Translations under genes and position numbers: made by a program
Notes under the pieces: generated by a model
Told to the model about the DNA's origin: nothing
What the model saw: the letters and a program-made list of their open reading frames with translations, nothing else
The model's database searches: none
Source: a virus
Reading direction: 5' to 3' (one strand)
IMG/VR virus record: IMGVR_UViG_3300027747_004699
Coordinates: 1 to 37,595 of that record
Length of the DNA stretch: 37,595 bases
Shown: positions 838 through 33,607 of the stretch, piece by piece
How the letters are laid out: each line of letters starts with the position of its first letter
Numbering within the stretch: the first letter of the stretch is position 1

Positions 838-869
838 GACAGGGCGGGGAAACCCGCCCTGTCTTTTTT
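838..869 (+). terminator. Strong Rho-independent terminator with GAAA tetraloop
   Basis: Arms GACAGGGCGGG and CCCGCCCTGTC form a perfect 11-bp stem closed by GAAA, followed by six T. It lies directly after the plus-strand remnant and touches the 3' end of the minus-strand SpoVR gene. It terminates plus-strand transcripts and shields the long minus-strand operon. On the minus strand the same hairpin lacks a T-run. Confidence 0.9.
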
Positions 870-3703
870 CACACCCTGATTTCGTCGTACTCTTCCCTCG
901 GCATGACCTCCACGTCGCATTCGTCCCCGTGACACCTGTAGATGAACTCTGCCCCCGCGGCGTTCTTGGTGGAGAGGCACACGTCGTTCTTCCACAACTT
1001 CCGCAGGGACTCCAGCACAGGTCCTATGTATGCGTCGTGCAGGGGCCTACCCGTCCATCTGTGCTGGAGGAACATGATCCCCTTGCCCCTGTGGTTGGGG
1101 TCGACGAGCCTGATCTCCGGGAGTCCGCCGTTCGTGTAGCTCGAGATGAGCTTGGCCTTTATGCGCTCGGGGTCCTTGCTCTCTATCTTGTACTCGCCGT
1201 TCGGGTATTTCTTCCACTCGAAGAACTCGTATTTCTCGCAGAACTCGGGGGTGAAGAACTCCATGATTAGCGTGATGTCGTTGTAGAGCTTGCGGACCTC
1301 AAAGACCTTCTCCTTGCCGAGTCCAAGTCCCCTGTCCCAGTTCTCCTTCTCCTTGATGTCGGAGCACTCCTCCCACTCCCTGCCGAACTGGCCCTTGTTC
1401 CATCGCTCTTCTATGTCGCACAGGAGGTTGAACCCGAGCTTGTACGGGTTCATGCTGTACTTGCCGCCGAGGACCCCCATCTTGTGCTGGGCGTACTCGA
1501 TGATGCCCGAGCTTTCGTGCTCCAATCCGAGGGAGGCAAGGCCCTGCCTGGCGATGATGTTGTAGTCGACCCAGCTGTTATGGTTTATGAAACCGTGCGC
1601 AGAATACCTGTGGGTTTCCTCCACTGTTATGTCGTACACAGTTCCTCTTCCATGCTGAATGGCGACAACCTCATCAAAACAATCTTCCTTGGTGAACCAC
1701 ATTCTATTGCCGACATGATTTGACAAGGAATCCTGCTTCCTCTTTAGTCCGAACCCTATTTCCTCCATGAATTTCTTGGTCTGGATTCCGCCCATGCGAA
1801 TATGCCAAATATGAGTCTTGCTCTCATCAGAGGATTTCGCCTTCTTTCTAGAACATATAATTCCGTAATTGAGCAGCACATTCTGTACCTGCTCTCCCAT
1901 CTTTTCACTTGATGTAGATAGTATCACGCCGCCCTTGCCGGCGTATCCGTCACAGTCGAAGTAAGCGCGCAAGAAGGCAGACATGACGTTTTTGGGAGAC
2001 ATCATTATGCATTCTGGGATCGTTTTTTTTCTGGCGCATTTGCCGGTATGAAGACCTAGGCTCCTTAGGAATTCCTGGAGAGTTTTGGAAGACAAGGACA
2101 CCCTCCATCTTCCGTTTTTAGAACTTCCATCCCATTTTCTTCTCCCCCTAATTCCAAACAATGAGTATAGCAATTCCTCGTAGGCTTCCACCTGTTCAAG
2201 GTCGCCAGAAGTTAAGCCCAAAGTTCTGCCCGATTCAGAAATGTGACCGTCGCCAATCATATAGCCAAGAAAACTGGCGAGGCGAGAGTCGACGACGGGC
2301 GGTACGGATATCTTTTTCCTTCTGATTGTTTGGGTCTGCCCTAGTCTGGCGATCTGGTCATCCACAATTCTGCTTATTTCTACAATTTCTTGTTCAGCAC
2401 AATCGTCTGTGCGCCTTCCCATCCTGTATTCATTATATTTCCAGTATCTAGACCCAAGAATATTCTTTATTTTTTTGGTGTCCAATCTTTCTTCTTCAAC
2501 ATAATCTACAGATACCAATTCCGTGGGCCAAATGTCCGATTTGGCTATTAGGATCGCACTTCCCTCCTTCGCATCCTTCATGTAAACCCACTCGCCCATA
2601 GAATTCCAAATCCTGTGGGTGTCGGAGCCTACGATCTTGTATCCCCTGCTGGTCTCTATGGTTACGGTATTTGTGTCTTCAAAGCGAAACCAATCGGTTA
2701 TTTCCCTACAACTTTCGCCATCGTGAACTAAACACGACATCTTTTTGTCTACAATATTCTTTGCGGCGATCATGCCTTTACTAGTTGGTATGAGTGTATC
2801 CGGACCGACACAGGCATGGCCTTCGTTGGACACCTTGGTCATTCTCTGCGGCGCGAAGTAGATGCTCTCCTCGTACAGCATCGAGACTATGTCGCTCTCC
2901 CATGGCTTGAGCGGGGCGTTGTCCCGTATGAACCCCATGATGTCCTTCGTGGAGCCGACGAACATGTCGAGGTACTCCGCCGCCTCGATCTTCTCTATCC
3001 GCTCGTGCTGCTTCTTGAGCCACTCCTCGGTGTTCAGATACCCCTCCATGTAGTCGTGGCCCTCTTCAACCTTGAGGCGGCTGGGGTGGTGGTACTTCCT
3101 GCTGTCCTTGTGGATGCTGTCCTTGTACCTCTTGGGCTCCCAGGCCTTGGCCGGGTCTATGAGCGTCTCTATGCGGAGCACGTGGTCGATGAACTCCGTG
3201 ACCCGCTCCTTGCCCCAGCGCGTCATGTACCGCCGGATGCGCGTCCCGTGGTTGGCCAGCTCGTTCATCATGTTCTGGCTGGTCTGCGCGAAGTAGATGT
3301 TGTTCTTGAAGAAGTCGGCATGTCCTAGGGCGTGGGCCACGACCGTGACGTTGTCGACCAAGGTGTTTGAGTCGAGGCAGTACAGGTAGCAGGGATCGGA
3401 ATTCACGACCATTTCGTATATGCGGTGCATCCCGTGCATATAGCCCTGCTGGAGTTCCTCGTACTCCATGCCCCAGCGCCAGTGGGGGTAACGCACCGGG
3501 AAGCCCCCGTACGCGGCGATCTCGCTGATCTCGTCGTAGGTCAGCATCTCCACGACGGTCGGCGGGAAGTCGCACCCGAAATCGCTGACCCGCCTGAATA
3601 TCTCTGGCAGGAGCCTCTTGAGCTCGTCGGGCATGGGAACGCCCGGAACGGTGCTGTCGCCTATGAGGACGGGCGAACCAAACATGAACTTGTTCTGTCT
3701 CAT
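869..3703 (-). CDS. spoVR: SpoVR family protein interrupted by an intein
   Basis: The precursor is 944 residues. Removing the intein (residues 298-709) leaves a 532-residue SpoVR/YcgB-like protein, close to the roughly 510 residues of E. coli YcgB. Extein signatures include HWRWGMEYEE, NTLVDNVTVVAHALGHADFF and the NEG(H)A segment into which the intein is inserted. SpoVR proteins are of uncertain biochemistry: they are linked to spore cortex formation in Bacillus and sit with PrkA and YeaH in a conserved stress-related operon in non-sporulating bacteria. The ATG at 3703 overlaps the YeaH stop (ATGA) and follows GGGGGTGG, so I chose it over an upstream in-frame start lying inside yeaH. The gene ends at the convergent terminator. 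Finding SpoVR on a phage is unusual. Confidence 0.93.
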   Translation of the reverse strand: MRQNKFMFGSPVLIGDSTVPGVPMPDELKRLLPEIFRRVSDFGCDFPPTVVEMLTYDEISEIAAYGGFPVRYPHWRWGMEYEELQQGYMHGMHRIYEMVVNSDPCYLYCLDSNTLVDNVTVVAHALGHADFFKNNIYFAQTSQNMMNELANHGTRIRRYMTRWGKERVTEFIDHVLRIETLIDPAKAWEPKRYKDSIHKDSRKYHHPSRLKVEEGHDYMEGYLNTEEWLKKQHERIEKIEAAEYLDMFVGSTKDIMGFIRDNAPLKPWESDIVSMLYEESIYFAPQRMTKVSNEGHACVGPDTLIPTSKGMIAAKNIVDKKMSCLVHDGESCREITDWFRFEDTNTVTIETSRGYKIVGSDTHRIWNSMGEWVYMKDAKEGSAILIAKSDIWPTELVSVDYVEEERLDTKKIKNILGSRYWKYNEYRMGRRTDDCAEQEIVEISRIVDDQIARLGQTQTIRRKKISVPPVVDSRLASFLGYMIGDGHISESGRTLGLTSGDLEQVEAYEELLYSLFGIRGRRKWDGSSKNGRWRVSLSSKTLQEFLRSLGLHTGKCARKKTIPECIMMSPKNVMSAFLRAYFDCDGYAGKGGVILSTSSEKMGEQVQNVLLNYGIICSRKKAKSSDESKTHIWHIRMGGIQTKKFMEEIGFGLKRKQDSLSNHVGNRMWFTKEDCFDEVVAIQHGRGTVYDITVEETHRYSAHGFINHNSWVDYNIIARQGLASLGLEHESSGIIEYAQHKMGVLGGKYSMNPYKLGFNLLCDIEERWNKGQFGREWEECSDIKEKENWDRGLGLGKEKVFEVRKLYNDITLIMEFFTPEFCEKYEFFEWKKYPNGEYKIESKDPERIKAKLISSYTNGGLPEIRLVDPNHRGKGIMFLQHRWTGRPLHDAYIGPVLESLRKLWKNDVCLSTKNAAGAEFIYRCHGDECDVEVMPREEYDEIRV
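1577..2812 (-). mobile_element. Intein with LAGLIDADG homing endonuclease (in SpoVR)
   Basis: This 412-residue in-frame insertion begins with Cys (CVGPDTLIPT, block A) and ends with GFINHN, with Ser as the +1 residue. Block B is GSDTHRIWN. Two LAGLIDADG-like helices are LGYMIGDGH and LRAYFDCDGY. Block F is VYDITVEETH. All splicing residues are present, so splicing and homing both look functional. It sits in the conserved SpoVR NEG-x-A motif, a typical choice because loss by imprecise deletion would destroy the host protein. Codon use is more AT-rich than in the flanking extein. Confidence 0.95.
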
Positions 3704-4911
3704 CTGTCCACCCCCGAGGCAGAAGACCAGTAGTTGATTTCCCTGTCCCTGGTGCGGCCGAGGAGCTCGGATATGGACGCCCTTATGGACTTGTCCCGCT
3801 CCTCTTCGTTCGCGGGACTCATTCCCATGGTTCCGACCTGAGTCGTCCTGATGTTCTTGCCCGAGCAAGAGCTGTCGACCTGCTGTTTCAGGCTGCTTTC
3901 GTATCTCCAAGGGAATATCTGAGCGATGCCTGCCATGTTGACGACTTCAGGGCGGAAGTCGGCGTCCAGCATCTTGCAGAAGACCTCGTTGTCCCCGTCC
4001 CAGTTCTCGCCGTCGGTGAAGTAGAAAAGGTATATGTTCCATTTCGCGGGGTCGAATCTGTTCTCGAACATGCCGGATATCAGTTTGAGGGCCGTCGAGC
4101 ACGTCGTGCCGCCGCCGTAGCGGTGCTTGTAGAACTTCTTCTCGTCAACCTCCTTGGCCACGGTGTCGTGCCAGACATACACGCGTTCGACCTTCTCGTA
4201 GAACTGCCTTATCCAGACGTCTATCCACCAGCTCATGTCACTGACGATGTCGCACTTGAACTGGTCCATCGAGGCCGAACCGTCGCGGGCGAAGAAGATC
4301 ACGGCGCTGCTGGTCGGGATCTTTATCTCGTTGAACTGACGGTACCGCTTGTCGCTGTTGATCGGGGTTATGAGGCGAACCGGGTTGGCGAAGCCGGGTA
4401 TGTCGTGAAGCTTGTTGATGGATCCGTCCGCGCACTGCCTCTTCAGAGCCTGCTTGAGGGTCCTCGCGTTGTGCCGCAGGCTCTCGGGCCCGACGAGCGA
4501 GATGTTGTTGTACCTCTTGATGATCTCCTCGTAGGTGTCTCCGGGCTTCGGCTTCATGTCGGGGAGCTCCAGTTCCTCCTTCATGAACTTGAGAACCTCC
4601 TCGAGGTCGACAGCTATGTCTATACCGTCTCCGGCATCCTGTCCGGCCTTGTTTCCCTTGCCGTCGGCCTTCTGGGGGTCCTTGCCTATGACATCCCCCT
4701 TCTCCCCCTGCCCGCGGCCCACGCCGCCGCCTCCTTCGCCGTAGACTATGTGGGGGATGTCTATCTTGGGTATGGTGACGACGACCTTGCCGTTCTTCCC
4801 TCGGCTCCTGAATATCGAGCCGTTCTTTATGTATTTCTTGAGTTCTTTTCGCCTGATGCCGCCGTAGACATCTTGAAAGTCCTTGTGATCCGCGTCGATC
4901 CTTCTTGGCAT
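3700..4911 (-). CDS. yeaH: YeaH/YhbH family (DUF444) VWA-like protein
   Basis: A 403-residue protein matching the DUF444 family (E. coli YeaH, B. subtilis YhbH). The N terminus is basic, a Gly-rich low-complexity linker spans about residues 58-95, and a von Willebrand A-like domain starts near residue 200. MIDAS-type residues are visible: DGSAS at 210-214, the GGGTTCS threonine near 270 and FTDGEN near 298-303. The family accompanies PrkA and SpoVR, and its molecular role is not settled. The start follows a strong AAGGAGG that overlaps the end of prkA 11 bases upstream, and its stop overlaps the SpoVR start. Translational coupling of all three genes is therefore likely. Confidence 0.93.
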   Translation of the reverse strand: MPRRIDADHKDFQDVYGGIRRKELKKYIKNGSIFRSRGKNGKVVVTIPKIDIPHIVYGEGGGGVGRGQGEKGDVIGKDPQKADGKGNKAGQDAGDGIDIAVDLEEVLKFMKEELELPDMKPKPGDTYEEIIKRYNNISLVGPESLRHNARTLKQALKRQCADGSINKLHDIPGFANPVRLITPINSDKRYRQFNEIKIPTSSAVIFFARDGSASMDQFKCDIVSDMSWWIDVWIRQFYEKVERVYVWHDTVAKEVDEKKFYKHRYGGGTTCSTALKLISGMFENRFDPAKWNIYLFYFTDGENWDGDNEVFCKMLDADFRPEVVNMAGIAQIFPWRYESSLKQQVDSSCSGKNIRTTQVGTMGMSPANEEERDKSIRASISELLGRTRDREINYWSSASGVDR

Positions 4912-4922
4912 CGGGCGCCTCC

Positions 4923-7001
4923 TTAATCTTCCTCGGAGACGTCCCCGCGGGCGAATATAGACGCCACATAGGCGAGAACATCCGTGGCGGACTTCTCGTT
5001 GTAGCCGTACTGGTCTATCAGCCTCTTCTTGACCGCGTCGATCTTCTCCTGCACGTCTTTGTCGACCACGGACGCGCCCTTAATGTCGAGGGCGGAAAGC
5101 TTTATGTGGTCCTTGGTGTCCTCGAATAGCTTGGCCTCCAGGGCCCGTTTGAGCTGCGGGTTGCTGTCCCACCTGAACTCCCTGCCGCCGTGGGCGAGGT
5201 GGCCGATGAAGCCCGCGAGCATCCGGCGGAAGTCGTCCGCCCCGACCTCCGGGACATCTATCTTCTCCTCGATGGACCGCATCAGCCTCTCGTCCGGCTC
5301 CTGGTCCTGCTCGGTCAGAGGATTGCGTATCTTCGTCCTGTTGATGTAGGCCATCACATTGTCGATGTAGTTGGAGCAGAGCCTCTCTATGGCGTTCTCG
5401 TCGCCCACGAGGGCCTTCTGAACCTCGTTCTTGAGTATCTCGTCGAGTTCCTTCCTCGCGTGGTCTATGCACTGCACGAAGCGGGCCTTGTCCTCCTGGT
5501 TGTTTATGAGGGACTGGTGGTCGAGGCCCATCTTGAGCTCGTTCAGAACCATGAAGAAATTGATGTAGTCGTAGTGCGAGCTCAGGCAGTTGCTGATCTT
5601 GTCCTGAGTGTATCTGCAGCTGATGCCCGTCATGCCCTCGTCGGGGTACTTGTCGCGCATCTCCTTGACGCTGTCCTCTGTCCATCCCGGGAGCGCGCGG
5701 CCGTCGTACAGCTTGGCCTTCTCCACGAGGCTGATCTTCCCGTCCTTGTCGTCCTGGAGCCTCGTGAGCACGGACCACAGGGCGGCTATCTCCAGCGTGT
5801 GCGGGGCGATGTGCTGCTTTATCCTGTCCTTGGAGTAGTGGTGTTCCAGAACCTTGAACTCCTCGCTCCATCGCAGCAGGTAGGGGACGTCTATCTTGAC
5901 TGTCCTGTCCCTGAGGGCCTCCATAGTCTGGTCGCTCTTGAGTCGGAGGAACTCGGGGGAGTTGGTATGGCCTATGAGGACGGTGTCCACCGCGACCTGG
6001 GGGAACTTCTTGGGCTTGATCTGCTTTTCCTGGCTGGCCCCGAGGAGGTCGTACAGGAACTCCTTGGCGAGCTTGAGAACCTCTATGAACTCCACGAGGC
6101 CCCTGTTGCCGACGCAAAATTCGCCGTCAAAGTTGAACGCCCTGGGATCCGAGTCCGTGCCGAAGTGGGGAAGCTTGCCCCAATTGACGTCGCCCGTGAG
6201 CTCCGTGCTGTCCTGGTTCTTCTCGTCCTTGGGCTGGAAAGTCGCGATTCCGCACCTGTCCGCCTCGTTGTGGACCTTTCTGACGACGCGTATGTGGTTC
6301 TCGACGACCTTGCCCCAGTCCCCGTCGTACCTTACGAGGAGCTCCTGCATGAACTTCTTCGATCGCGGGTCGAGGTCGCCGTCGACGGACAGCCGGTACA
6401 TGGAGGTCTTCTCGGTGTCCGGAGTCCGCTCCGCGAGTATGCGGTTGAGGTCGGACACGACCTCCTTCCTCATCTCCGCAGGGAGGAGCTTCAGAGGGTC
6501 CTCGTGCATGGGGGACTCGTCCTCGCTTTGAGTGTATATACCGTCCTCTTTTCCGGTGGGCAGGTTGACCCACTTGAACGTGTACCACGCCCCCTCGTCC
6601 GTCAGGGAGTACGCCTCCAGACCCTTCTTTATGCAGCGTAGAATGGTCGACTTGGAGCTCCCGACGGGGCCGTGAAGAAGCAGCACCCTCCTGTCTGGGC
6701 CGTAGCCGCCGGCGGCGCCCTTGAAGAACTGGACGATCTGGTGGAGCGTCTCGTCCAGGCCGAAGATCGGCATGTCGGAACTCTCGAAGAAGTTGTACCT
6801 TATGTAGGTCTTCCTGTACCGCTCGATCTTCTTAGACCCCTTGCTGACAATCATGTCGTAGAGGTACTGGTATGCCGTGCGGGCCAGCTTGGGTCTATCG
6901 TAGACGATGTCGAGGTATTCGGCGAACGACATCTCCTCGTTGATCTTCTTGAATTTTTCCCTGTCGAACCTAGAAGAAAGCCTTCGGAGTGCTTCGCTCA
7001 T
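4923..7001 (-). CDS. prkA: PrkA family serine kinase / AAA+ ATPase
   Basis: A 692-residue protein of the PrkA/YeaG family (631-644 residues in B. subtilis and E. coli). The AAA+ part shows Walker A GPVGSSKST at 111-119, a Walker B-like NRGLVEFIE at 299-307 and a sensor-type VLIGHTN at 341-347, followed by the C-terminal PrkA region. PrkA proteins have been described as serine kinases and, more recently, as AAA+ proteases. They act in sporulation control in Bacillus and in nutrient-stress adaptation in enterobacteria. The protein is probably cytoplasmic. It heads the prkA-yeaH-spoVR triad and has its own likely promoter at 7034-7062. The canonical motifs argue that it is active rather than decayed. 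Confidence 0.94.
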   Translation of the reverse strand: MSEALRRLSSRFDREKFKKINEEMSFAEYLDIVYDRPKLARTAYQYLYDMIVSKGSKKIERYRKTYIRYNFFESSDMPIFGLDETLHQIVQFFKGAAGGYGPDRRVLLLHGPVGSSKSTILRCIKKGLEAYSLTDEGAWYTFKWVNLPTGKEDGIYTQSEDESPMHEDPLKLLPAEMRKEVVSDLNRILAERTPDTEKTSMYRLSVDGDLDPRSKKFMQELLVRYDGDWGKVVENHIRVVRKVHNEADRCGIATFQPKDEKNQDSTELTGDVNWGKLPHFGTDSDPRAFNFDGEFCVGNRGLVEFIEVLKLAKEFLYDLLGASQEKQIKPKKFPQVAVDTVLIGHTNSPEFLRLKSDQTMEALRDRTVKIDVPYLLRWSEEFKVLEHHYSKDRIKQHIAPHTLEIAALWSVLTRLQDDKDGKISLVEKAKLYDGRALPGWTEDSVKEMRDKYPDEGMTGISCRYTQDKISNCLSSHYDYINFFMVLNELKMGLDHQSLINNQEDKARFVQCIDHARKELDEILKNEVQKALVGDENAIERLCSNYIDNVMAYINRTKIRNPLTEQDQEPDERLMRSIEEKIDVPEVGADDFRRMLAGFIGHLAHGGREFRWDSNPQLKRALEAKLFEDTKDHIKLSALDIKGASVVDKDVQEKIDAVKKRLIDQYGYNEKSATDVLAYVASIFARGDVSEED

Positions 7002-7064: not shown

Positions 7065-7415
7065 TCACTTCACTTCGCCGAAATGCTTGCCGCTGGATAT
7101 GTCGTCTATCCTGCGGTACGGCTCGGCTCCGACCTTGGACGCGCGGGCGGCGGCCGCCCTTTGGTCTCTCGTGCCGCCCGGCTTGTCCATGTTGTACTTG
7201 AACCGGTAGTCGTGGCCCTTGCTCTCGCTGTTCCACCTGTCGGTGCCCACCGGGTTGGAGAAGCTGACGGACGGGCAGCCCACTATCTCCGTCTTTTCCG
7301 CGGCTCCGCACGATGGGCAAGTCGCCCGCCCCACCGACTCATCCTTCTTGGACATCTGGCACAGAATGTCGTATGCTTCGCCGCACGCGTTGCACACCAT
7401 CTCATAAATCGGCAT
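7065..7415 (-). CDS. FmdB-type zinc ribbon protein
   Basis: A 116-residue protein with an FmdB-like N terminus: MPIYEMVCNACG at residues 1-12 and a second CPSC pair near 33-36, forming a four-cysteine zinc ribbon. The rest is basic and hydrophilic. FmdB-type ribbons are small putative regulatory or nucleic-acid-binding domains; the substrate here is unknown. AAGGAG lies 10 bases before the ATG. The gene overlaps its upstream neighbour by 14 bases and is directly followed by the promoter and prkA, so a regulatory link to the triad is possible but unproven. Confidence 0.75.
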   Translation of the reverse strand: MPIYEMVCNACGEAYDILCQMSKKDESVGRATCPSCGAAEKTEIVGCPSVSFSNPVGTDRWNSESKGHDYRFKYNMDKPGGTRDQRAAAARASKVGAEPYRRIDDISSGKHFGEVK

Positions 7416-7665
7416 CTTCGTCGTACTCCTTCCTTATTTCGGCAAGACCCTTGAAAACCTTCGAGACCATGGCGACCTTGTCCTCCGGGGACATGAATCT
7501 CCAACCGAAAGTGCCCTCGCACATCCTTATCGAGCAATCCATGAGGTGTCGGGCCGGGCTCTCCACCTGCGCCATGGATATGAACTCGGTCGGAGGCGGC
7601 ATTTCGAACTCGCCGCCGTCCTCCTCGTCGCCCCCGTCGTCGTCGCCGAAGTAAAATCTCTTCAT
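7402..7665 (-). CDS. Hypothetical protein
   Basis: An 87-residue protein starting MKRFYFGDDDGG, with a very acidic N terminus (residues 6-20) and an amphipathic C-terminal half. The start overlaps the preceding stop by one base (TGATG) and follows GGGGG, so I reject a longer upstream reading. No family is recognised. It belongs to the tightly overlapped series leading to prkA. Confidence 0.65.
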   Translation of the reverse strand: MKRFYFGDDDGGDEEDGGEFEMPPPTEFISMAQVESPARHLMDCSIRMCEGTFGWRFMSPEDKVAMVSKVFKGLAEIRKEYDEDADL

Positions 7666-8126
7666 CAAACCCCCACAGACCTGTAAAGGTCGTTGCATTT
7701 CTCCCAGGCCCTGAGCACCGCAACCTCGTTGACAGTCATGTCAAGTGTTCCGAATCTCTTGGTCGCCCTGTGGAACGGAACCTGGTTTCTATTTATCCAT
7801 TCGTCGGCCACAAAATTGCCGCAACCTCCCGAATAATCCACGAGAAACTTCTGGTCTTCCGACTTGGCAGAAGCCGCAGACCAGTCGCCCTCGAAATCCC
7901 GAACCGCGACGACGGCAGGATGGAACCTGAAGTCCGCCCTGGGGGGCCTCCCCAGGGCCCCGAAAACCGACGCCCATCGGAACAGCGGGTGGACGAGATC
8001 AACCTCCACGAACACCTTGCAATCCGGGAGGAATTTCCTGAACGAGTACCAGGCCGCGAAGGCCATCCAGTCATGGCATGGAAGGCACCGGCACTCTATC
8101 GATATCACAAGTCCTTTGGGGATCAC
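7665..8126 (-). CDS. Hypothetical protein
   Basis: A protein of about 153 residues beginning with a strand-like VISIECRCLP and then an aromatic-rich HDWMAFAAWYSF segment. It has five Cys and several Trp, and no motif that I can name. The GTG at 8126 lies three bases after the upstream stop. A second GTG at 8108 (before ISIEC) is equally possible because neither has a well-spaced Shine-Dalgarno sequence. A Rossmann-like or glycosyltransferase-like fold is imaginable from the first strand and the neighbouring sugar genes, but this is a guess. Confidence 0.6.
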   Translation of the reverse strand: MIPKGLVISIECRCLPCHDWMAFAAWYSFRKFLPDCKVFVEVDLVHPLFRWASVFGALGRPPRADFRFHPAVVAVRDFEGDWSAASAKSEDQKFLVDYSGGCGNFVADEWINRNQVPFHRATKRFGTLDMTVNEVAVLRAWEKCNDLYRSVGV

Positions 8127-8573: not shown

Positions 8574-9932
8574 CTATGTAGTCGCAATCCGACTTATTTT
8601 TCTTATGGACTCCGTGGTCGAATGCCCGCCCACAAGACCGAAAGAGCACACCTCCTGGACTAGGTCGGAGCCGACCGGGTCCGGACAGTCCGACCCTTTG
8701 ACCAAAACGTCGGGCATGACCTTCTTCATGAGTTCGTAGGGGGTGTCCTCTTCGAAGTCCAAGACGAAGTCCACGCACTCGAGGGCCGCAATCATGGATT
8801 TTCTGTAGCCTAGGGAGTTGATGAGGGGATGGCTCTTGCCCTGTCTTCTGACGCTTTCGTCTGAATTGAGAGCTACAACGAGACCGTCGGCCTTGGACCT
8901 TGCGAACTTGAGTAGTTCCATGTGGCCGGGGTGAAGGACATCAAAACATCCGTTACAAAAGGCAAGCGAAAAATCCCTCTTCTGAAGAATCCTGGGATCT
9001 ACACATTTGGAAGGAGCAATCTGATAGGGATAGAGAGGACGGTTGTGAGGCTCTTCTACATAGAGGGAGCAAGCCTTGAACGCTATTTCCACCGCCCTGC
9101 GGATGTCTATGGAGTGAGCCATGCACATGGCAAGAAATGCGACGAAGGCGTCGCCCGCACCAACGACAGACCTCGGAGCCTTCCTGAAGGCTGGCCTGTG
9201 TTCAAACCAAACGCCCTGCACGTTTCCCACGACACCCTCGCCAGCCTGCGTTATGACGACCGCCTGGCAGTCGGTCTCACGCATGAAGAATTCGCACTGC
9301 CGTTTCCAGTCGGAATGACCGCTAATATCCTCAGCCTCTTTGGAGTTGGGTTTTATGATTGTGCATCCCCTCCACCGCCCAAGGGGAGCCTTCTTGGGAT
9401 CAACTATTGTGATCGTGCTTTCGTCGATGCGGCCAATGAATTCGCCCATGCCCCTGAAGAGTCCCTTGTCGTAGTCGGAAAACACGACGACATCAAACGG
9501 ATCGCGGGAAAGCAGCTTTTCAAGGAGCTTGTCCCGCAGTCCCTGCAGGGAATCCAGTTCCAGGCCGTAGTCCTGGGATTCGACATCGAAGCGGAAGAGG
9601 GGAAATCCTTCGCTGTAGAACCTCTTCTTGACTGGGACGCGCTTTGAAAATATGCACCCGTCCATGTTTATCCCGCCGGCGAGATACTTTATCCTCTCGT
9701 TGGTCAGGGCAAAAAGGCTGATGTCAAAGTTGAAATTGGAAAACTGCCTGCAGACATTCGCGGCTCCGCCGAGGACGATGCCCGGGACGTCGTCATGAGA
9801 GTGGAAGACGGGTATCGGAAACTCGGGACTCACCCTGTCTGCAGAAACCTCGTAGTACTCGTCGAGCATCGCGTCCCCGAAGACGGCCACCCTCGGACGA
9901 AAATCAAACTGCCTGTCTATCAGCTCATTCAA
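8574..9932 (-). CDS. hldE: Bifunctional heptose 7-phosphate kinase / heptose 1-phosphate adenylyltransferase
   Basis: A 452-residue HldE/RfaE-type protein (E. coli, 477 residues). The N-terminal PfkB-type kinase shows GGAANV at 55-60 and the catalytic VGAGDAF at 257-263. The C-terminal nucleotidyltransferase has FCNGCFDVLHPGH at 325-337 with the diagnostic HxGH. Together these domains make ADP-heptose for LPS inner core. The apparent start is TTG at 9932: it overlaps the thyX stop and has GGAGG ten bases upstream, while no ATG lies at the right place. Two glycosyltransferases occur in the same operon. On a phage the pathway could serve remodelling of host LPS or glycosylation of phage components. 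Confidence 0.93.
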   Translation of the reverse strand: MNELIDRQFDFRPRVAVFGDAMLDEYYEVSADRVSPEFPIPVFHSHDDVPGIVLGGAANVCRQFSNFNFDISLFALTNERIKYLAGGINMDGCIFSKRVPVKKRFYSEGFPLFRFDVESQDYGLELDSLQGLRDKLLEKLLSRDPFDVVVFSDYDKGLFRGMGEFIGRIDESTITIVDPKKAPLGRWRGCTIIKPNSKEAEDISGHSDWKRQCEFFMRETDCQAVVITQAGEGVVGNVQGVWFEHRPAFRKAPRSVVGAGDAFVAFLAMCMAHSIDIRRAVEIAFKACSLYVEEPHNRPLYPYQIAPSKCVDPRILQKRDFSLAFCNGCFDVLHPGHMELLKFARSKADGLVVALNSDESVRRQGKSHPLINSLGYRKSMIAALECVDFVLDFEEDTPYELMKKVMPDVLVKGSDCPDPVGSDLVQEVCSFGLVGGHSTTESIRKISRIATT

Positions 9933-10573
9933 AATCCGAAGGCCTCCAGGGTAAGACGGAAGGGACTTCCCGGAAGAGCCCGGACCGCGTCCAGCATCAT
10001 CTGGGCGACGTCCCTGGTCTCCTTCTGGGCGTCGGGCTTCAGCCTCAATTTCCAGAGGTGGAGGAAAGCCGCGAGCGAACCCGTCCATATGAACTGCGTC
10101 TCAAGGCAGAGGGGCAGTATTATCCTGCACTGCTCCTTGGCCACTCCCGCCGCCACCATGTCCTCGTAGAGCTCCTTGCACTGGGCTACAAGGCCGTTGA
10201 TTCTCGCAACAAAATGAGAGTTGTCGGCAGAAACCATGTCTCCCGCGCTCCCCTGCTTGCTGTCCTTGGACTGAAGCCTCAGCTTTTCGGGAATCCAGTA
10301 CTCGTCCGAGAAATCCACATATCTCCCGCTTATGCTGTTGGCCGTGAGTCCGACCTGGTGCTTGAAGAGCTGCCTCTCCACGAATATCGGACACTGTATC
10401 CGGAACTGGAGCTGGGGGTGCCGGAACGGCGAGGTGTGGCCGTGCTCAACGAGAAACCGTATGAGCCTCGAGTCCTTGTCGTCCAGGACTCTCTTGCTCT
10501 TGCCGTAGCTGACGCGAGCCGCGTTCACGACCATTAGGTCGTCGCCGAAGTGAGAAAGAAGTTCGGCGTTCAT
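9929..10573 (-). CDS. thyX: Flavin-dependent thymidylate synthase
   Basis: A 214-residue ThyX that converts dUMP to dTMP using methylene-tetrahydrofolate, NADPH and FAD. The ThyX signature (normally RHRxxSxNxxSxRY) reads KHQVGLTANSISGRY here, so the first two arginines are replaced by Lys and Gln. The C-terminal QCRIILP and AQKETRDVA segments are normal for the family. The start overlaps the upstream glycosyltransferase stop (ATGA), and its own 3' end contains the start of hldE. ThyX is common in large lytic phages for thymidine supply, and the dNMP kinase at 15785 fits the same role. Confidence 0.92.
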   Translation of the reverse strand: MNAELLSHFGDDLMVVNAARVSYGKSKRVLDDKDSRLIRFLVEHGHTSPFRHPQLQFRIQCPIFVERQLFKHQVGLTANSISGRYVDFSDEYWIPEKLRLQSKDSKQGSAGDMVSADNSHFVARINGLVAQCKELYEDMVAAGVAKEQCRIILPLCLETQFIWTGSLAAFLHLWKLRLKPDAQKETRDVAQMMLDAVRALPGSPFRLTLEAFGF

Positions 10574-16701: not shown

Positions 16702-18219
16702 ATGGGGAATTGCTGCGGGCCATTCAAACGAGGAAGACCAGCCAAGGCGGTTGTATCTAGCCAACAGTGCTTCGCGGACTGCTGCGGGAACCTGTGCCCG
16801 CCGGAGGGCTGCTGCGATTCGATAACCATCAATTTCGAGTGCGGCTGCGGATGCGAATGCCAGCAGACCTACAACTTCAACGGACTGAAGTTCAAGAGGA
16901 AGACGCCTAGAACAATAGGGATACCGTCCTTCTCGAAAAAGGTTTTGACCGCGAACGGATTCACTTTCGCGGCGGGCGGCACGGTGCCATCCATACCCGG
17001 TTCATCTTCTACCGAAGAGCCGCCAACCTCCAGCAGCACCACGGAGCCACCTTCCAGCTCCTCTACAGAAGTCACCTCCAGCAGTTCGTCCATCACCTCC
17101 AGCAGTTCGTCCATCACCTCCAGCAGTTCGTCCGTCACCTCCAGCAGTTCGTCCGTCACCTCCAGCAGTTCGTCCGTCACCTCCAGCAGTTCGTCCAGCA
17201 GTTCCAGTAGTTCCAGCAGTTCCAGCAGTTCGTCCGTCACCTCCAGCAGTTCCAGCAGTTCGTCCAGCAGTTCGTCCATCACCTCCAGCAGTTCCAGCAG
17301 TTCCAGCAGTTCGTCCAGCAGTTCGTCCAGCTCAAGCGAGTTGTACTACTGCGTTGTAGTCAAGAGTTCCAGCAGTTCGTCCAGCACCACAGGTGGGTGC
17401 CAAACCGGAGGGTGCGTAGGGTGGTACAGAAAGACCGACTGTGCGCCTTGCGTATACACAGGGCCGAAAGGCGCTCCGGCAGGAACAACTAAAGATGTAT
17501 ATACAGGATCCAATGGGCAATACAACTGCGATACATTGGCCCCGTTCAAGCCGGGCAGTCCGGAGTGCTCGGGCGGGGCGGGCTTCATTGACTTTCCGAG
17601 TGTTGAATGGCCGCCAGAAATAATTACGGCACAGGCCAACCCGGGGTGCGAAAGGCAGTGCATAAAAGAGTCGGAGCTAGATCCGAAGCGCCACATAGTC
17701 GTTGGCGGACCGTACCTTACGACGGAGGAATGCGAACAGAACTGCCAGTGCTCCAGTTCCAGTTCCAGTTCCAGCTTCATCTCCAGTTCCAGTTCCAGTT
17801 CTAGTTCCAGCTCCAGCTCCAGCAGCTCCTGCGTTTGCAAGACCGCATCTGTGCAGGTCACAACAAGCGGGTGCTGCCTGTACCTGGCGTCGGGTGGCGT
17901 GGAGGCGGTCGGATCGGGCGAGGTTTCGGCGTCGCTGTCCGGCCCCGGTCTGGATGGCTGTCCGGTCACGCTGCTCATGAATGGACAGGCGACAAGCACC
18001 ATATCCGTAGAGGACGGGGACAGCATAGACATAGAACTGCAGACGGAGGGCAGCTGCACATGCTGCAAGACCCAGTCTGACTGCTCGTCCCAATCAACGG
18101 GCATGTGGGTTCAGAAGAGCAACAAGGACAAGTCCACCATAGCTCTCGACAAGCGTACGCTCATGGCGAAGATAAAGGCGGCTACCGACAAGGTGAGGGG
18201 CAGGCGAAGAAAAGGCTAG
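16702..18219 (+). CDS. Cysteine-rich, poly-serine structural protein
   Basis: A 505-residue protein of very unusual composition. Residues 1-60 hold about fifteen Cys, including CGCGCEC. Residues 100-212 are an almost pure Ser tract with Ile-Thr and Val-Thr punctuation. Next comes a Cys-rich globular segment, 213-350, with the pattern GPYLTTEECEQNC, then a second pure-Ser tract, about 351-376, and a final domain of about 130 residues with CTCCKTQ and a basic C terminus. Ser-rich flexible linkers between disulfide- or metal-stabilised modules suggest a surface decoration or adhesion protein. It starts immediately after the previous stop. Its TAG overlaps the convergent helicase TAG within CTAG. 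Confidence 0.8.
   Translation: MGNCCGPFKRGRPAKAVVSSQQCFADCCGNLCPPEGCCDSITINFECGCGCECQQTYNFNGLKFKRKTPRTIGIPSFSKKVLTANGFTFAAGGTVPSIPGSSSTEEPPTSSSTTEPPSSSSTEVTSSSSSITSSSSSITSSSSSVTSSSSSVTSSSSSVTSSSSSSSSSSSSSSSSSSVTSSSSSSSSSSSSITSSSSSSSSSSSSSSSSSSELYYCVVVKSSSSSSSTTGGCQTGGCVGWYRKTDCAPCVYTGPKGAPAGTTKDVYTGSNGQYNCDTLAPFKPGSPECSGGAGFIDFPSVEWPPEIITAQANPGCERQCIKESELDPKRHIVVGGPYLTTEECEQNCQCSSSSSSSSFISSSSSSSSSSSSSSSSCVCKTASVQVTTSGCCLYLASGGVEAVGSGEVSASLSGPGLDGCPVTLLMNGQATSTISVEDGDSIDIELQTEGSCTCCKTQSDCSSQSTGMWVQKSNKDKSTIALDKRTLMAKIKAATDKVRGRRRKG
17068..17335 (+). repeat. Ser-coding tandem repeat, first tract
   Basis: Short units such as TCCAGCAGTTCG and an 18-base unit encoding Ser with Ile-Thr or Val-Thr repeat head to tail in frame. 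Copies are near identical at DNA level, so length variation by slippage is expected. Any change in multiples of three keeps the frame. Confidence 0.85.
17752..17829 (+). repeat. Ser-coding tandem repeat, second tract
   Basis: Mainly alternating TCC and AGT codons (TCCAGT units), unlike the TCCAGCAGTTCG pattern of the first tract. The two Ser tracts therefore probably expanded independently. Confidence 0.8.
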
Positions 18220-21200
18220 CTGCCCCTGATGTGGGCCAGCATCTCTGCCACCCTGTCGTCCTTCATGTTCAGCACCCGCTTGACGGCCTGGGGATCGGCG
18301 AGGAGGTCTGACGGCCTCCTGAACCCGGCGGCGAACAGCTTTTCGGCCCGGACCTTGCCGACATTGGGGATCCTGCACAGGTCAACGAGCTCGGTGCGAA
18401 CGCCGTAGGAAACCCTCATCGACAGGTCCCTGAAGAAGGATCCGCGGTTCCATTTGGCCGCCATGGAATCAAGCAGGTTCAGAACGCTTGCGAGGCGGTC
18501 GAAATCCATTTGGAGGCCTCTTGCCATGGACGCGAAGGGTCCTAGGGGAGACCCGTTGAGGAGACAATGGTAGGCGTACGCGCCTTTTACGGTACCATCA
18601 GGCCAGTCGCCGAAGGCCTTTCTGAACTTGACGGCGAAGAACTCCATCTCTTCCTTCTCCGCCCTTGTCACGAAGCCACTCCGGATGGAATCCACGTTGC
18701 CGAGGGCCATGGCGACGGCCAAATCGTTGGACTCGTTGGAGTTGGCGAACAAATGCTTGAAGTTGCGCCGAAGATCGGCGACGTCGAACGGGCTGTAGTA
18801 CAGCATGCTCGACACCTTGCCGACGGAGGTGACCTCGTACCTGCCGCCCTCCTCCTTGATCGCCCCCACCCTGAGTAGGAGGTCTATGGTCTTGTCGGCT
18901 ATCGAGTCGTCAAGCTCCTTGTACTGGAAGTACGCGAGGGATCGCGCGTACCAGTCGTGGACGTCGGCCATGCAAGATATCGAGCCGTGATGTATGTCGC
19001 TGACGAGGTGGAAAGCGAGGGTCTTGTAGTGCGGATCGTCCTCGCTGCCGGTATGGTTGAGCAGTTGGGACTCTATCTTCTTGGGGACGGACAGACGCTC
19101 GATGTGGTGATCAGGGTTCCTGTTGGGCACGAGGATGTAGACATCGCCCCGGGGGTCGTACCCCGGCCTGCCAGCCCGACCGGCCATCTGGAAGATGTCG
19201 TAGGTCTCGACCTCCGTCATGCCCCGATGGACGCCGGCGATGATCACCCTTCGGGCTGGGAGGTTGCAGTTGTGCGATATCGCTCCGCAACCAACATAGG
19301 CGTGGGGGCTCTCAACCTCTATCTCCCTGAACTTGCCACCTTTGCATTCTTGCAGTTCTTTCACCCTCGCCCAGTAGTATGGTTTTTCAAGAACGTCGTT
19401 CAGTCTAGTCTTTTTTGGGGATGCAGAAACCAGTTTTTCTATCGTGGCTCTAGCGCAGTCTTGTGTATTAAGACTGTTGTATAGGTCGCCACCTGTAATA
19501 TTGCGGAAATCCTTGGCCTTGAGATTGTTGGAGCCGACATATTCGCACAACAACTCTCTCGCCGGAACCAAATCCTTTGCGTGACCAGCAGCCGAGGTCG
19601 CGAGAAAATCATCAAGCCTAGAAGCCTTGCTCGGACAACCAAAGCCTATGTGCCTCCTGAAGGCCTCCAGATTCGTCCTGCCGAAAACCCGAAGTCTGTA
19701 GCAGTAGTCCCTGACGGGATTTTGAAGCCTTCCTTTTATGACCGAGGGCTTGATTTTTTTTCTGCCGAAGGAGGACCTGATTCCGAAGCCAAGAAGTAGA
19801 GTCCTGACCGATTCGACCGCCTTCTCGCTGATGTTGGTGAGGCCGACCGAAACATTCCCGTTAGAATTGCTCTCTGTGCCACCGTCCGAATCAAAAAGCC
19901 CCCTCAAAAAACTTTTAACCCTACTTTGGTCTCCGTAAACAGAATTTGGTATGTCGTTCGTTCCGTTCTTGCGCCCAATCGGGAGAATCTCCTTGAGTCT
20001 ATCGGTCGTAGATTTTTTCTTCGTGACGAGATGAGGTATGCCATTGGTGTCGTTCCTTACGCCGCCCGATACGCCGAACTCCTCGTAAAACATTCTGATG
20101 ACCTGGTTGGCCAGGCTGTCCATCTTGCCGAGACAGATGTCTATAGTTATCTTTTCCGAACCATCGGCGTGACTTCCACTTCTTACGAGACATCCGTCGC
20201 CGAAAATGAACCCGACCAAATACCAAAAGCGATCCAGTCCGACCTCTTCTCTCCAAATTTTGAGATCGGACGGAACGGCGACAAAGTCTCCTTTGGACAA
20301 AGAGGAGACCCTATTCCAGTTCGGCGAAGACCTGCCCTTGGCGGACAGAAACACATGGTCGTCTGACACAGTCATCGTGTCGCCGCACTCAAGTTTGATG
20401 AAGTAACCAGAATCGGAATCGAAGTCCTTGGTCCTCACGACCTTTCTGGACTTGAAGCCGTCTTTCACGGGACAAAGCAACTCGTCCCCGACTCGCAATT
20501 CGGCAACATCCTTCAGCGAGCCATCGGGAAGGACCACCCTGCTCCCATGTCTGTAGCAGCCCCACGCGACCGTGCTCGTAGCGATGAGCACCCTCAGGTC
20601 GCCGTGCTTGAACCTGTCCTCGACCGCGTGCCTCTTCTCCTTCTCGAGATCGGCGTTGTGGAACTCACACTCTATACGACGGTCGGCGAGCGCCGACCTG
20701 ATCCTCTCGCCGGTGGCCTTGGAGTGGACGAAGACGAGGAACTTGTCGTCCTTGTACTCCCTGATCAAGTCCACTGCCCTCTCCGCCTTGTACTCCTCAG
20801 TCTGGTCGTAGGTCTCGGCGACCTCGTACTCCTCGTAGTGGATGTCGAGCGGGCAGGGCCTGTAGTCGGAGACCACGAGGTAGGTGTCCTTCTTGACCAG
20901 GCTGCATCCCACCCAGTTGGCTATCTCGTCGACGTTCGGCATGGTCGCGGAAAGGAAGACGATCCTCGGGTCGCGGGCGACCTTGGAGAACTTCATCAGG
21001 CCGACCTCCAGGTGGTCGCCCCGGCCGGGAACCGTCAGCAGGTGCGACTCGTCAACCACGATGGTGCCGCACGCCTTCAGGAACTCGTTCTTCTCGGAGT
21101 CCATGTTCCTGCACCGCGACGAGAGCATCTCGGAGGTCATGACTATGACATCCGCCTCCTCGAGCTCCTTGTGCCTGGCCTCCGTCAGCCTGTAGTCGCC

Positions 21201-21521
21201 CGTGCAGATCGCGACCTTTAGGCCGTCGAAGACCGACCCCGGCGAGGTCCACTCGTCGATCTTCTCCTTCGCGAGGGCCCGGAGCGGGGCCAGGTAGATG
21301 GCCTTGCCTCCCCTCTCCCTGACCTCGTGGGCCATGAAGAGCTCCGCGCATATCGTCTTGCCGACCCCGGTGGGCGCGGCGATGACGCAGTTGCAGTCCC
21401 TGTCGTGCACCTCGAAGACCCTGCTCTGGACCCTGTTGAAGTGTTCGAACGGGTACCTAGCGTGGACGAAGGCCGAGGCGGGGACGAGCTCGTTCTGGTC
21501 TGTTAGCGTTGTCAGCGACAT
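18216..21521 (-). CDS. Hel308/Ski2-like superfamily 2 helicase interrupted by an intein
   Basis: The 1101-residue precursor becomes about 671 residues after removal of the intein (322-751). Helicase motifs are clear: I APTGVGKT at 49-56, II DESH at 157-160, III SAT near 191, V split by the intein (TVAWG / CNLPA) and VI QMAGRAGRPG. A C-terminal helix-hairpin-helix (IPNVGKVRAEKLFAAGF) matches Hel308, a 3'-5' DNA helicase of fork repair in archaea and eukaryotes. Here it probably serves phage recombination-dependent replication with UvsX and the gp32-like protein. The ATG at 21521 lies six bases after a strong hairpin and lacks an accessible Shine-Dalgarno sequence; an in-frame GTG at 21569 is an alternative. 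Confidence 0.9.
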   Translation of the reverse strand: MSLTTLTDQNELVPASAFVHARYPFEHFNRVQSRVFEVHDRDCNCVIAAPTGVGKTICAELFMAHEVRERGGKAIYLAPLRALAKEKIDEWTSPGSVFDGLKVAICTGDYRLTEARHKELEEADVIVMTSEMLSSRCRNMDSEKNEFLKACGTIVVDESHLLTVPGRGDHLEVGLMKFSKVARDPRIVFLSATMPNVDEIANWVGCSLVKKDTYLVVSDYRPCPLDIHYEEYEVAETYDQTEEYKAERAVDLIREYKDDKFLVFVHSKATGERIRSALADRRIECEFHNADLEKEKRHAVEDRFKHGDLRVLIATSTVAWGCYRHGSRVVLPDGSLKDVAELRVGDELLCPVKDGFKSRKVVRTKDFDSDSGYFIKLECGDTMTVSDDHVFLSAKGRSSPNWNRVSSLSKGDFVAVPSDLKIWREEVGLDRFWYLVGFIFGDGCLVRSGSHADGSEKITIDICLGKMDSLANQVIRMFYEEFGVSGGVRNDTNGIPHLVTKKKSTTDRLKEILPIGRKNGTNDIPNSVYGDQSRVKSFLRGLFDSDGGTESNSNGNVSVGLTNISEKAVESVRTLLLGFGIRSSFGRKKIKPSVIKGRLQNPVRDYCYRLRVFGRTNLEAFRRHIGFGCPSKASRLDDFLATSAAGHAKDLVPARELLCEYVGSNNLKAKDFRNITGGDLYNSLNTQDCARATIEKLVSASPKKTRLNDVLEKPYYWARVKELQECKGGKFREIEVESPHAYVGCGAISHNCNLPARRVIIAGVHRGMTEVETYDIFQMAGRAGRPGYDPRGDVYILVPNRNPDHHIERLSVPKKIESQLLNHTGSEDDPHYKTLAFHLVSDIHHGSISCMADVHDWYARSLAYFQYKELDDSIADKTIDLLLRVGAIKEEGGRYEVTSVGKVSSMLYYSPFDVADLRRNFKHLFANSNESNDLAVAMALGNVDSIRSGFVTRAEKEEMEFFAVKFRKAFGDWPDGTVKGAYAYHCLLNGSPLGPFASMARGLQMDFDRLASVLNLLDSMAAKWNRGSFFRDLSMRVSYGVRTELVDLCRIPNVGKVRAEKLFAAGFRRPSDLLADPQAVKRVLNMKDDRVAEMLAHIRGS
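19269..20558 (-). mobile_element. Intein with LAGLIDADG homing endonuclease (in helicase motif V)
   Basis: A 430-residue in-frame insertion beginning CYRHGSRVVLPDG (block A, Cys1) and ending GCGAISHN, with Cys as the +1 residue. Block B is VSDDHVFLS. LAGLIDADG-like helices are LVGFIFGDGCL and FLRGLFDSDGG. Block F runs through EIEVESPHAYV. It splits the motif V sequence of the helicase. Splicing residues are intact. It differs clearly from the SpoVR intein, so the two were not produced by a recent duplication. Confidence 0.95.
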
Positions 21522-21527
21522 GGAAAC

Positions 21528-21555
21528 GGGGAGGGGGTCTTTCGGCCCCCTCCCC
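21528..21555 (-). promoter_or_regulatory. Strong hairpin directly before the helicase start
   Basis: Minus-strand GGGGAGGGGG and CCCCCTCCCC pair perfectly over 10 bp with an eight-base loop, six bases before the ATG. The purine-rich arm is the only Shine-Dalgarno-like sequence and would be hidden in the stem. No T-run follows. It could restrict translation, act as an attenuator, or mark RNA processing. Confidence 0.7.
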
Positions 21556-21573
21556 TCCCTCTCCCCCACTATG

Positions 21574-23176: not shown

Positions 23177-24367
23177 TCAATCCTCTTCCTTGGACCCGAG
23201 CAGGTGTCCGACGTCCTGGTTGGTGTCCACCTGCTCCACATTGTCGCTGTTCGTGAGGGCGATCGCCCCCGACCACTCTTTGAGGTATTCGGAGACCTCC
23301 TCCGGACTTTCGGCGTCGACGAGAGCGGGATACTTCATCAGTATAGCGGAGTCGAACGGCGCGGACTTGGACTGCTGGAAGGTGGCCCCCTCCTCGCCGG
23401 CGTTCCACTGGGGGAGGATCACATACTTGCCGGCCCCCTTGGAGGGTTCGACGCGCTTCGCCATGAGAAGGGCGTCGAGCAGGCCGCCGAGCGGGTTTAT
23501 GCCGGAGTCGAAGAATAGAGGCACGTTCTCGACCTTCACCCCGGGCGTGAAGTGCCGGTTCTTCTTGTTGGCGATCGTCATGTTGACGCCCAGGGACAGC
23601 TTGGTGTCCTTGTCCTGGAACGACTTGGGGGCGCCGGTCCTGAACCTGAGCGAGGCGTAGAACTTGAGGGCCTCCCCGCCGCCGCTCGTCGTCTCGTCGT
23701 TGCCGTAGATGACGCCGATCTTCTTGCGCACCTGGTTGATGACGTACAGGGTCGCGTCGTTGTCGTTGAGGAACGGGTTGAGGCTCCGCAGAATCTTGTT
23801 GGCGAACTTCGCCCTCTCGCCGGGGCGCTCATGCCCGACGGCGTCGATCTGGGCCTTCGTGGGGTTGTCCGGAAGGTCGACCTCGCTGAACTCGCGCTCC
23901 GTGGGGTTCACGCCGATGCTGTCCCACACTATGCCGATGGGCTTGTCGGGGAACTTCGACCGTATGGCCCTGACCACGGAGATTATCTGCTTCTCGACCT
24001 GCTGGAGGGTTACGGGGCTGTATACGATGAGTTTGTCGGGGTCGACATGGCCGCAGCGCTCCGCGAACTCGCTTCCGCTGGACCTCTCGCAGTCCAGCAG
24101 GACGGCTATGCCCCCCTGCTTCTGGATCGCCCCGAGGAAGCAGTAGCCGAGGAACGACTTGCCCGAGGCCTCCGGGCCGAAGGCCTCGATGATTCGTCCG
24201 CCGGGGAAGCCGCCCTTGACGAACCGGCCGCTGCAGGCGTAGTTGATGGCCAAGTTGCCAGTGTTTACGTAGTACGGCACGATCCCCGCGTTGCGCAGGG
24301 TCTCGCCTCCGGTGGAAGAGAGTATCTCGTCCAGAATCGAATCCTCGTTCTTCTTTGCCTTGGCCAT
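23177..24367 (-). CDS. uvsX: RecA/UvsX-family recombinase
   Basis: A 396-residue strand-exchange protein. Walker A is GPEASGKS at 64-71, Walker B is GIVWDS near 145-150, and an acidic C terminus ends GSKEED as in RecA and UvsX. It forms filaments on single-stranded DNA for recombination-dependent replication and repair. GGAG lies six bases before the ATG at 24367. The gene follows the gp32-like gene across a strong hairpin, an adjacency that supports a functional replication/recombination unit. I prefer the name uvsX because of the gp32-like neighbour, but RecA-type classification is possible. Confidence 0.93.
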   Translation of the reverse strand: MAKAKKNEDSILDEILSSTGGETLRNAGIVPYYVNTGNLAINYACSGRFVKGGFPGGRIIEAFGPEASGKSFLGYCFLGAIQKQGGIAVLLDCERSSGSEFAERCGHVDPDKLIVYSPVTLQQVEKQIISVVRAIRSKFPDKPIGIVWDSIGVNPTEREFSEVDLPDNPTKAQIDAVGHERPGERAKFANKILRSLNPFLNDNDATLYVINQVRKKIGVIYGNDETTSGGGEALKFYASLRFRTGAPKSFQDKDTKLSLGVNMTIANKKNRHFTPGVKVENVPLFFDSGINPLGGLLDALLMAKRVEPSKGAGKYVILPQWNAGEEGATFQQSKSAPFDSAILMKYPALVDAESPEEVSEYLKEWSGAIALTNSDNVEQVDTNQDVGHLLGSKEED

Positions 24368-24402
24368 GTTTTGCTCCGTGGTTTGATCGAGAAATGGAAT
24401 AG

Positions 24403-24438
24403 GGCCTCCCCCTCGGCCCGATTGCCCAGGGGGAGGCC
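24403..24438 (-). promoter_or_regulatory. Intercistronic hairpin between gp32-like gene and uvsX
   Basis: Perfect 11-base arms GGCCTCCCCCT and AGGGGGAGGCC flank a 14-base loop, about 20 bases after the upstream stop. No T-run follows, so it is not a standard intrinsic terminator. It may stabilise the gp32-like mRNA end or adjust expression between the two genes. Confidence 0.7.
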
Positions 24439-24456
24439 TGTTCCAACAGAAAAGAA

Positions 24457-25398
24457 TCAGCCGAGCTTCCTGAGCTCTTCGAGGAAGTCCTCGTCGGCGT
24501 CGGACTCGTCGGAATCCGACTCCTGCGCCACCGTGGCGGCGACAGGGGCGTGCCGAGCCTCGTCGCGGGGCTTCGCCTCGGCGGCCTGGGGCTTGCTGGC
24601 GTACTTGGTGGGATCGAACCCGCCTTCCGTCTCCTGCTTGAGGCCGAGATGGACGAGGAGCTCGTGCTCCAGCTCCTCGTAGCTCTTCAGGATCCTGAGG
24701 GCCTTGAGGTCGTGGAGGTTCTCCATCCACCTCTTGCAATCGTCGGGATCGCCGGCGGGCGACTCCTCAAGGAAATGGGAACCCTCGTAGTTCGGGAAGC
24801 TCTGGTCCCCGGACTTGCGGATGGTCTTGACGAGCTTGAAGTCGTACCCGGCCTTGAAGTCGGTCACGTCGCCGAGCTTGGGCTGGTTCATCTCCTTGTC
24901 GCCGAGGATGCCCCTCAGGATGATCTCGTGGACGGTCTTGCCGACCGACAGGATCTTGGGGCCGACATTCTTCTTGACCGTGCCGTCCTCCGACCGCTCC
25001 TCGCGGACGATGACGTTGTAGTAGTACCTCTCGATCGGCTTGATCTGCCTGTAGAGGTTCCTCTTCTGCTCGGCCTCCGCCGGGGCGGCCTGCTCGCTCT
25101 CCTTCCAGAGGTGACGCATGTACTCGCAGATCGGGTTCTTGCCGACCCACTTGCCGTTGACATACTCGCGTATGTCGTGGAGGCTCTTGCCGTTCACCCT
25201 GTGGAGGGCGGTCACGAGGTAGAAGGGGTTCTCGTCCCTGCCGAAGGTCCCCTTGGGGGCTGGCGGTAGCAGGCGCATCACCACGCTGCCCTTGCCTTCA
25301 GGCATCCTCACGAAGTTCTCGAGGAAAGACCCACCGCTGCCCTCCGCAGCCTTGAGCGTCTTGTAGTCATTCTGAAGCGATCCGAGATCAAGTCCCAT
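24457..25398 (-). CDS. gp32-like single-stranded DNA-binding protein
   Basis: A 313-residue protein with a T4 gp32 layout: a short basic N terminus, an OB-fold core, an Ala/Pro/Glu linker near 265-290 and an acidic C-terminal tail (SDSDESDADEDF) for partner binding. The zinc-binding set of T4 gp32 (one His and three Cys) is largely missing; I see one Cys in NPICEYMRH. It coats single-stranded DNA during replication and recombination. GGAG precedes the ATG, and a near-consensus promoter lies about 60 bases upstream, consistent with strong early expression. Confidence 0.85.
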   Translation of the reverse strand: MGLDLGSLQNDYKTLKAAEGSGGSFLENFVRMPEGKGSVVMRLLPPAPKGTFGRDENPFYLVTALHRVNGKSLHDIREYVNGKWVGKNPICEYMRHLWKESEQAAPAEAEQKRNLYRQIKPIERYYYNVIVREERSEDGTVKKNVGPKILSVGKTVHEIILRGILGDKEMNQPKLGDVTDFKAGYDFKLVKTIRKSGDQSFPNYEGSHFLEESPAGDPDDCKRWMENLHDLKALRILKSYEELEHELLVHLGLKQETEGGFDPTKYASKPQAAEAKPRDEARHAPVAATVAQESDSDESDADEDFLEELRKLG

Positions 25399-33553: not shown

Positions 33554-33589
33554 TTCACCCTCCGACCTATATATGCGAACTAAAGTCAA

Positions 33590-33607
33590 TCAAGATATTT
33601 ATCTTGA
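33590..33607. repeat. Inverted repeat at the AT-rich boundary
   Basis: TCAAGATA and TATCTTGA are separated by two bases. On the minus strand it contains GATAAATA, the same octamer seen before the gene at 120, and lies upstream of the fibre gene at 33553. It could be a weak terminator of the AT-rich genes or a late promoter; neither is certain. Confidence 0.55.

Follow-up and report, generated by a model that had tools for sequence, protein, structure and literature searches.

PrkA, YeaH (DUF444/UPF0229) and SpoVR constitute a stress module that is widespread in bacteria, though its biochemical function is not settled. In R. etli and Sphingobium, the genes lie in the order prkA-yeaH-spoVR, and in R. 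etli they have been described as a single operon (prkA-vWA-spoVR; PMC3188799); E. coli carries yeaGH, with ycgB unlinked. Mutation of yeaG or yeaH alters how E. coli copes with sustained nitrogen starvation, which these genes help it to survive (PMC4664914). All three families are also present in phages, including the Thermus phages phiYS40 (in which SpoVR is annotated as YS40_057 and the kinase as YS40_059), TMA, phiLo, Lalka8 and MN1, and the huge phages of approx. 640 kb LR756502, LR756504 and LR745206. Moreover, PrkA and SpoVR have been reported in the Ralstonia jumbo phage RsoM2USA (PMC8504454), and spoVR has already been listed as a viral auxiliary gene (PMC8940887). Phage triads as such (phiYS40), and PrkA together with SpoVR in RsoM2USA, are therefore known; the size and age of the phage clade described below, its fourth gene (a zinc ribbon) and the traffic of inteins through its SpoVR genes are new.

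The stretch of DNA analysed here (the window) is an entire IMG/VR record of 37,595 bp, itself a fragment, and it is a piece of a huge T4-like phage (Caudoviricetes). This identity is drawn from a UvsX-like recombinase gene (23177..24739, minus strand; phrog_97, 7e-51; collinear in contigs G001, G003 and G005), a gene for a gp32-type ssDNA-binding protein (24457..25398, minus strand; PF08804, 4e-13; phrog_1192) and the collinearity of positions 881-27,200 with the same three independent contigs, one of which has capsid genes, at protein identities of up to 94%. The gene set of the window also includes a dNMP kinase, a ThyX thymidylate synthase (9929..10573, minus strand; PF02511; found in 42 of 80 viral loci) and an HldE-like kinase/nucleotidyltransferase (8574..10088, minus strand; PF00294 and PF01467; 70 of 80). 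The initial annotation had argued for phage flanks from the overlap with thyX-hldE; the ThyX and HldE-like genes do overlap, but it is UvsX, gp32 and the collinear contigs that identify the phage.

The 37.6-kb window itself holds no capsid or terminase gene. A T4-type gp23 gene lies on the same contig as the triad in G003 (151 kb), G028 (320 kb), G038 (459 kb) and LR756511 (595 kb), at a distance of at least 129 kb from it in each; a portal gene (gp20) is found in G003, G028 and LR756511, a sheath gene in eight contigs, and a terminase above the cut-off in G028. An initial gp23 scan with one protein as query matched only its own contig. When contigs were selected by capsid first, the triad was found in a 459-kb contig and in neither of two gp23 contigs of 323 kb and 251 kb, which are possibly fragments. 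The gp23 genes on triad contigs, some with portal or sheath, together with the phage-only clades in three trees (see below), strongly support the residence of the module in phages, as had been proposed. The alternative of a bacterial chromosomal fragment is ruled out by the same trees and by collinearity with capsid-bearing contigs.

The module is encoded on the minus strand in the order PrkA (4923..7001, 692 aa), DUF444 (3700..4911, 403 aa) and SpoVR (869..3703, a 944-aa precursor whose start ATG is at 3703, not 3910). Pfam confirms the three families named in the initial annotation, and the order is indeed that of the bacterial operon. The genes had also been described as overlapping, which is true of DUF444 and SpoVR (ATGA), whereas an 11-bp gap containing a ribosome-binding site separates PrkA from DUF444. 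Directly upstream of PrkA lies a gene for a 116-aa FmdB-type zinc-ribbon protein (7065..7415, minus strand; TIGR02605, above the cut-off). A zinc-ribbon gene occupies this position in 70 of 88 viral loci vs 0 of 80 bacterial ones, counted among the best loci of each scan. A T4-type late promoter (ATAAATA, a motif enriched across the window) before the triad was considered and rejected, the only nearby minus-strand copy falling within an ORF (7665-8126).

PrkA is an AAA+ ATPase with a PrkA C-terminal domain, and both domains are matched at full length (PF08298, 6e-78, 262.8 bits; PF06798, 4e-75, 253.3 bits; cut-offs 25). It matches the solved homologue 9xip with 683 bits; 9xip, 9xiq and 9xir are recent PDB entries, with 30 chains in total, that contain this PrkA homologue. 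The Walker motifs had been called intact, and alignment bears this out for Walker A (GPVGSSKS), whose lysine aligns with E. coli K116. In contrast, the designation as a kinase can be retained only as a family name. Members of this subfamily do not conserve K426, the kinase lysine of YeaG; the window PrkA has Asp at the aligned position, and since B. licheniformis PrkA likewise lacks Lys there, K426 is not a family-wide feature. The YeaG-type equivalog PRK15455 (NCBIfam) scores 201.7 bits against the window protein, below its cut-off of 576, which places the latter in a different subfamily. In B. anthracis, neither kinase nor protease activity of PrkA was detectable (PMC13001217).

The DUF444 (YeaH/YhbH) protein matches PF04285 (9e-63). 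Its MIDAS residues, previously reported as intact, are D210-x-S212-x-S214, T269 and D300, all invariant across 70 homologues. Structures matched by its AlphaFold model are vWA/MIDAS domains (E 4e-7), those of Rea1/MDN1 among them, and the modelled fold is that of a von Willebrand A domain with the complete MIDAS. A similar arrangement of an AAA+ motor and a MIDAS-bearing vWA protein is found in MoxR AAA+/vWA systems, Mg-chelatase I/D and Rea1-MIDAS. This is a comparison of how such systems work and not a claim of membership; PrkA belongs to an AAA+ family of its own and has an extra C-terminal domain.

All three genes had been described as intact, and each has strong Pfam support; SpoVR, however, is interrupted by a 412-aa intein that had been overlooked (1577..2812, minus strand; NEGHA|C...HN|SWVDYN). 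The insertion is in-frame and splits the most conserved motif of SpoVR, NEG-x-A|S. The intein possesses the expected hallmarks, namely Cys1, a terminal HN, the +1 nucleophile and two LAGLIDADG endonuclease motifs; it matches PF14528 (1.8e-21) and TIGR01443 (intein C-terminal region), while PF14890 gives 35.3 bits, slightly below its cut-off of 35.8. Judged by its sequence, the 532-aa extein with the intein taken out is an ordinary SpoVR, as the spliced form matches PF04293 (5e-96, 322.4 bits) and SpoVR_C (PF24755; 5e-7, 30.2 bits), both above the cut-offs. A PDB search with the AlphaFold model of SpoVR (pLDDT 85.7) found no solved relative of the fold; the best match (E 0.12, TM <0.15) was not significant, and no activity is assigned.

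A PrkA scan matched 134 viral stretches, of which the best 80 were fetched, and later additions brought the set to 88 loci; the viral and bacterial sets thus represent the best 80 of each scan and not a random sample. Within these limits, 84 of the 88 viral (IMG/VR) loci hold a collinear triad, the remaining four stopping at a contig edge, and the order PrkA-DUF444-SpoVR is found in 57 of 80 bacterial loci. In the PrkA tree, the window belongs to a set of 57 rows that are all from phages (SH-aLRT 100), the neighbours of which are Planctomycetota, Myxococcota, Bdellovibrionota and Chloroflexota. Phage-only clades are likewise obtained for SpoVR (55 rows, SH-aLRT 96) and DUF444 (57 rows, SH-aLRT 91), so that the phage copies of each protein form a clade of their own. 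The trees were built by a quick method, and deep joins of long branches are unsure; the SpoVR and DUF444 trees unite a small lineage (L202/L203) with the main phage clade, a placement that the PrkA tree does not resolve. The three genes have dN/dS values of 0.035-0.11 in comparison with close relatives, indicating strong purifying selection on the triad. The zinc ribbon-PrkA-DUF444-SpoVR operon of this clade is old and vertically inherited. It shares families and gene order with the bacterial operon but is distinguished by its own clades, the upstream zinc ribbon, the SpoVR inteins and a PrkA no more than 55% identical to bacterial ones.

The other phage triads have different histories. Those of the Thermus phages are ordered DUF444-SpoVR-PrkA, have a PrkA of approx. 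30% identity, form a separate long-branched lineage, and no intein was found in them. In the phages of approx. 640 kb, PrkA is of the YeaG type known from proteobacteria (25-27% identity), which marks their triad as a separate acquisition. As both groups fall elsewhere in the trees, phages have probably acquired the triad on three or more occasions. One further locus, L096 (Enterobacter phage LAU1), carries YeaG/YeaH at one edge of its 30.8-kb record, near-identical to the E. coli gene; these are likely the host flank of a prophage and not phage genes.

A census of 74 full-length phage SpoVR genes (L003-L082) identified inteins at two sites, a (YEMVN|T/S; 14 genes) and b (NEG-x-A|S; 17 genes), with eight genes carrying both; in total, 23 of the 74 genes are occupied and 51 are free of inteins. 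The site-a carriers include L023, and the window intein is at site b. Both sites touch invariant SpoVR residues. The carriers are scattered over the SpoVR tree (9 and 7 changes), and three genes that are 97-99% identical around the sites have no intein (L025), one at site b (L026) or both (L028), the empty sites being clean. Between the window and its nearest relative (L003), dS is 0.077 in the intein and 0.71-0.93 in the triad; this roughly tenfold difference from the host gene indicates recent homing. Identity between the two rises to 94-96% immediately upstream of the intein, which suggests co-conversion. The sequences thus show that the intein moves between phages. Three stages can be seen, namely inteins that look active, a decaying one in L050 with degenerate endonuclease motifs, and a 129-aa mini-intein in SpoVR of LR756504 that lacks the endonuclease and lies two residues off.

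Inteins at site b also occur in bacterial SpoVR genes, in three Chloroflexota genomes (L111, L113 and L122; Oscillochloris and two MAGs), with an identical insertion site (NEGWA|C...HN|S). The Oscillochloris intein is 43% identical to phage inteins over its full length, and two of the three have been stripped of most of the endonuclease domain. The shared site and the homology of the inteins argue for an exchange between phages and bacteria at some time, in either direction. A stronger version, in which inteins circulate by homing through a single network of phage and bacterial SpoVR genes, and splicing gates the phage stress module, is considered unlikely. No paper naming SpoVR and an intein together was found, which is weak evidence, given partial coverage of the literature.

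Two alternatives concern the origin and function of these elements. A recent insertion of bacterial DNA, or a chimeric assembly within a viral record, is a highly improbable source of the triad. Composition does shift along the window: GC falls from about 60% to 30-45% at 33,600-37,595, adjacent to a repetitive gene for a YadA-like stalk (31733-33589), and 33,684-37,595 is collinear with, and 84% identical to, a 31%-GC contig (IMGVR 3300032312_001042, G051). The right end (about 33.6-37.6 kb) is therefore probably a chimeric join, or else a product of recombination, and it has no effect on the triad. For the latter, the reading is refuted by the collinearity over 881-27,200, by the phage-only clades, by a PrkA identity of 62-92% within the phage clade vs at most 55% to bacteria, and by a GC content of 57-59% in PrkA, DUF444 and the SpoVR extein, as in the rest of the window. 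As for the intein, one could imagine that it is kept as a switch, with redox- or stress-dependent splicing timing the activation of SpoVR; at both sites the insertion directly adjoins invariant residues, and SpoVR would be blocked for as long as the intein stays in place; moreover, Cys-based inteins sit at conserved sites. This proposal is improbable, however, in view of presence that varies even between nearly identical phages, a majority of clade members without any intein and the occurrence of decayed forms. Such patchiness, empty sites and decay fit a selfish homing cycle, and the intein is most simply regarded as a selfish homing element that has settled where the gene tolerates no change.

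The role of the module was weighed in a similar manner. In other AAA+/MIDAS pairs, the AAA+ motor works with a MIDAS-bearing vWA protein. By analogy, PrkA would form an ATP-driven AAA+ ring and DUF444 would serve as its MIDAS-bearing adaptor, as in MoxR-vWA pairs or Rea1-MIDAS; the two may jointly remodel or activate the effector SpoVR, which would be functional only after the predicted self-splicing of its intein. Less certainly, the module might help a host that is under stress or growing slowly to survive a prolonged infection, much as bacteria employ their own copy. We assign a probability of about 0.6 to this explanation as a whole, i.e., an old phage operon whose AAA+/MIDAS pair acts on SpoVR and sustains the stressed host. 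The module might instead serve the development of the phage itself, remodelling a phage substrate in virion assembly or genome packaging. The matches of the DUF444 model to the MIDAS domains of Rea1/MDN1, active in assembly remodelling, are in keeping with such a role, and in Lalka8 and phiYS40 the reordered Thermus triad has portal, minor head or terminase genes as neighbours, an arrangement compatible with a developmental role. In the window clade, on the other hand, the triad is found among genes of DNA metabolism (UvsX, gp32, helicase, ThyX and dNMP kinase) and far from gp23 on the four large contigs, which mildly disfavours a virion role; we regard it as rather improbable. Somewhat less probable still is that the module counters host defence or imposes a dormancy that favours the phage and not the survival of the host. 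In viruses of oxygen-minimum zones, spoVR has been proposed to promote host persistence (PMC8940887), but a PADLOC search matched none of the four proteins (PrkA, DUF444, zinc ribbon and SpoVR without its intein), and the bacterial counterparts are widespread stress genes and not defence genes.

The retention of the triad under purifying selection in a large phage clade suggests that the three proteins act as one unit, and the phage triad offers a compact system for testing the module. The inteins mark the SpoVR residues least able to change, and the insertion site held in common with Chloroflexota records DNA contact between phages and bacteria in the past and is a possible clue to the hosts of these huge phages.

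Several further features of the window were observed. Positions 60-110, which appear intergenic, contain a repeated element, a terminator-like hairpin (followed in the window by an ATAAATA motif resembling a T4 late promoter), which recurs in relatives (G003 at 17450, 17909 and 147972). A plus-strand ORF at 16702-18219 has serine runs and Cys-rich ends, with a partial match in relatives on the opposite-strand side of the map. Finally, a DEAD/DEAH-box, Hel308-like helicase gene (18216-21569) contains a 430-aa LAGLIDADG intein (19269-20558), the site of which is empty in G001, G003 and G005.
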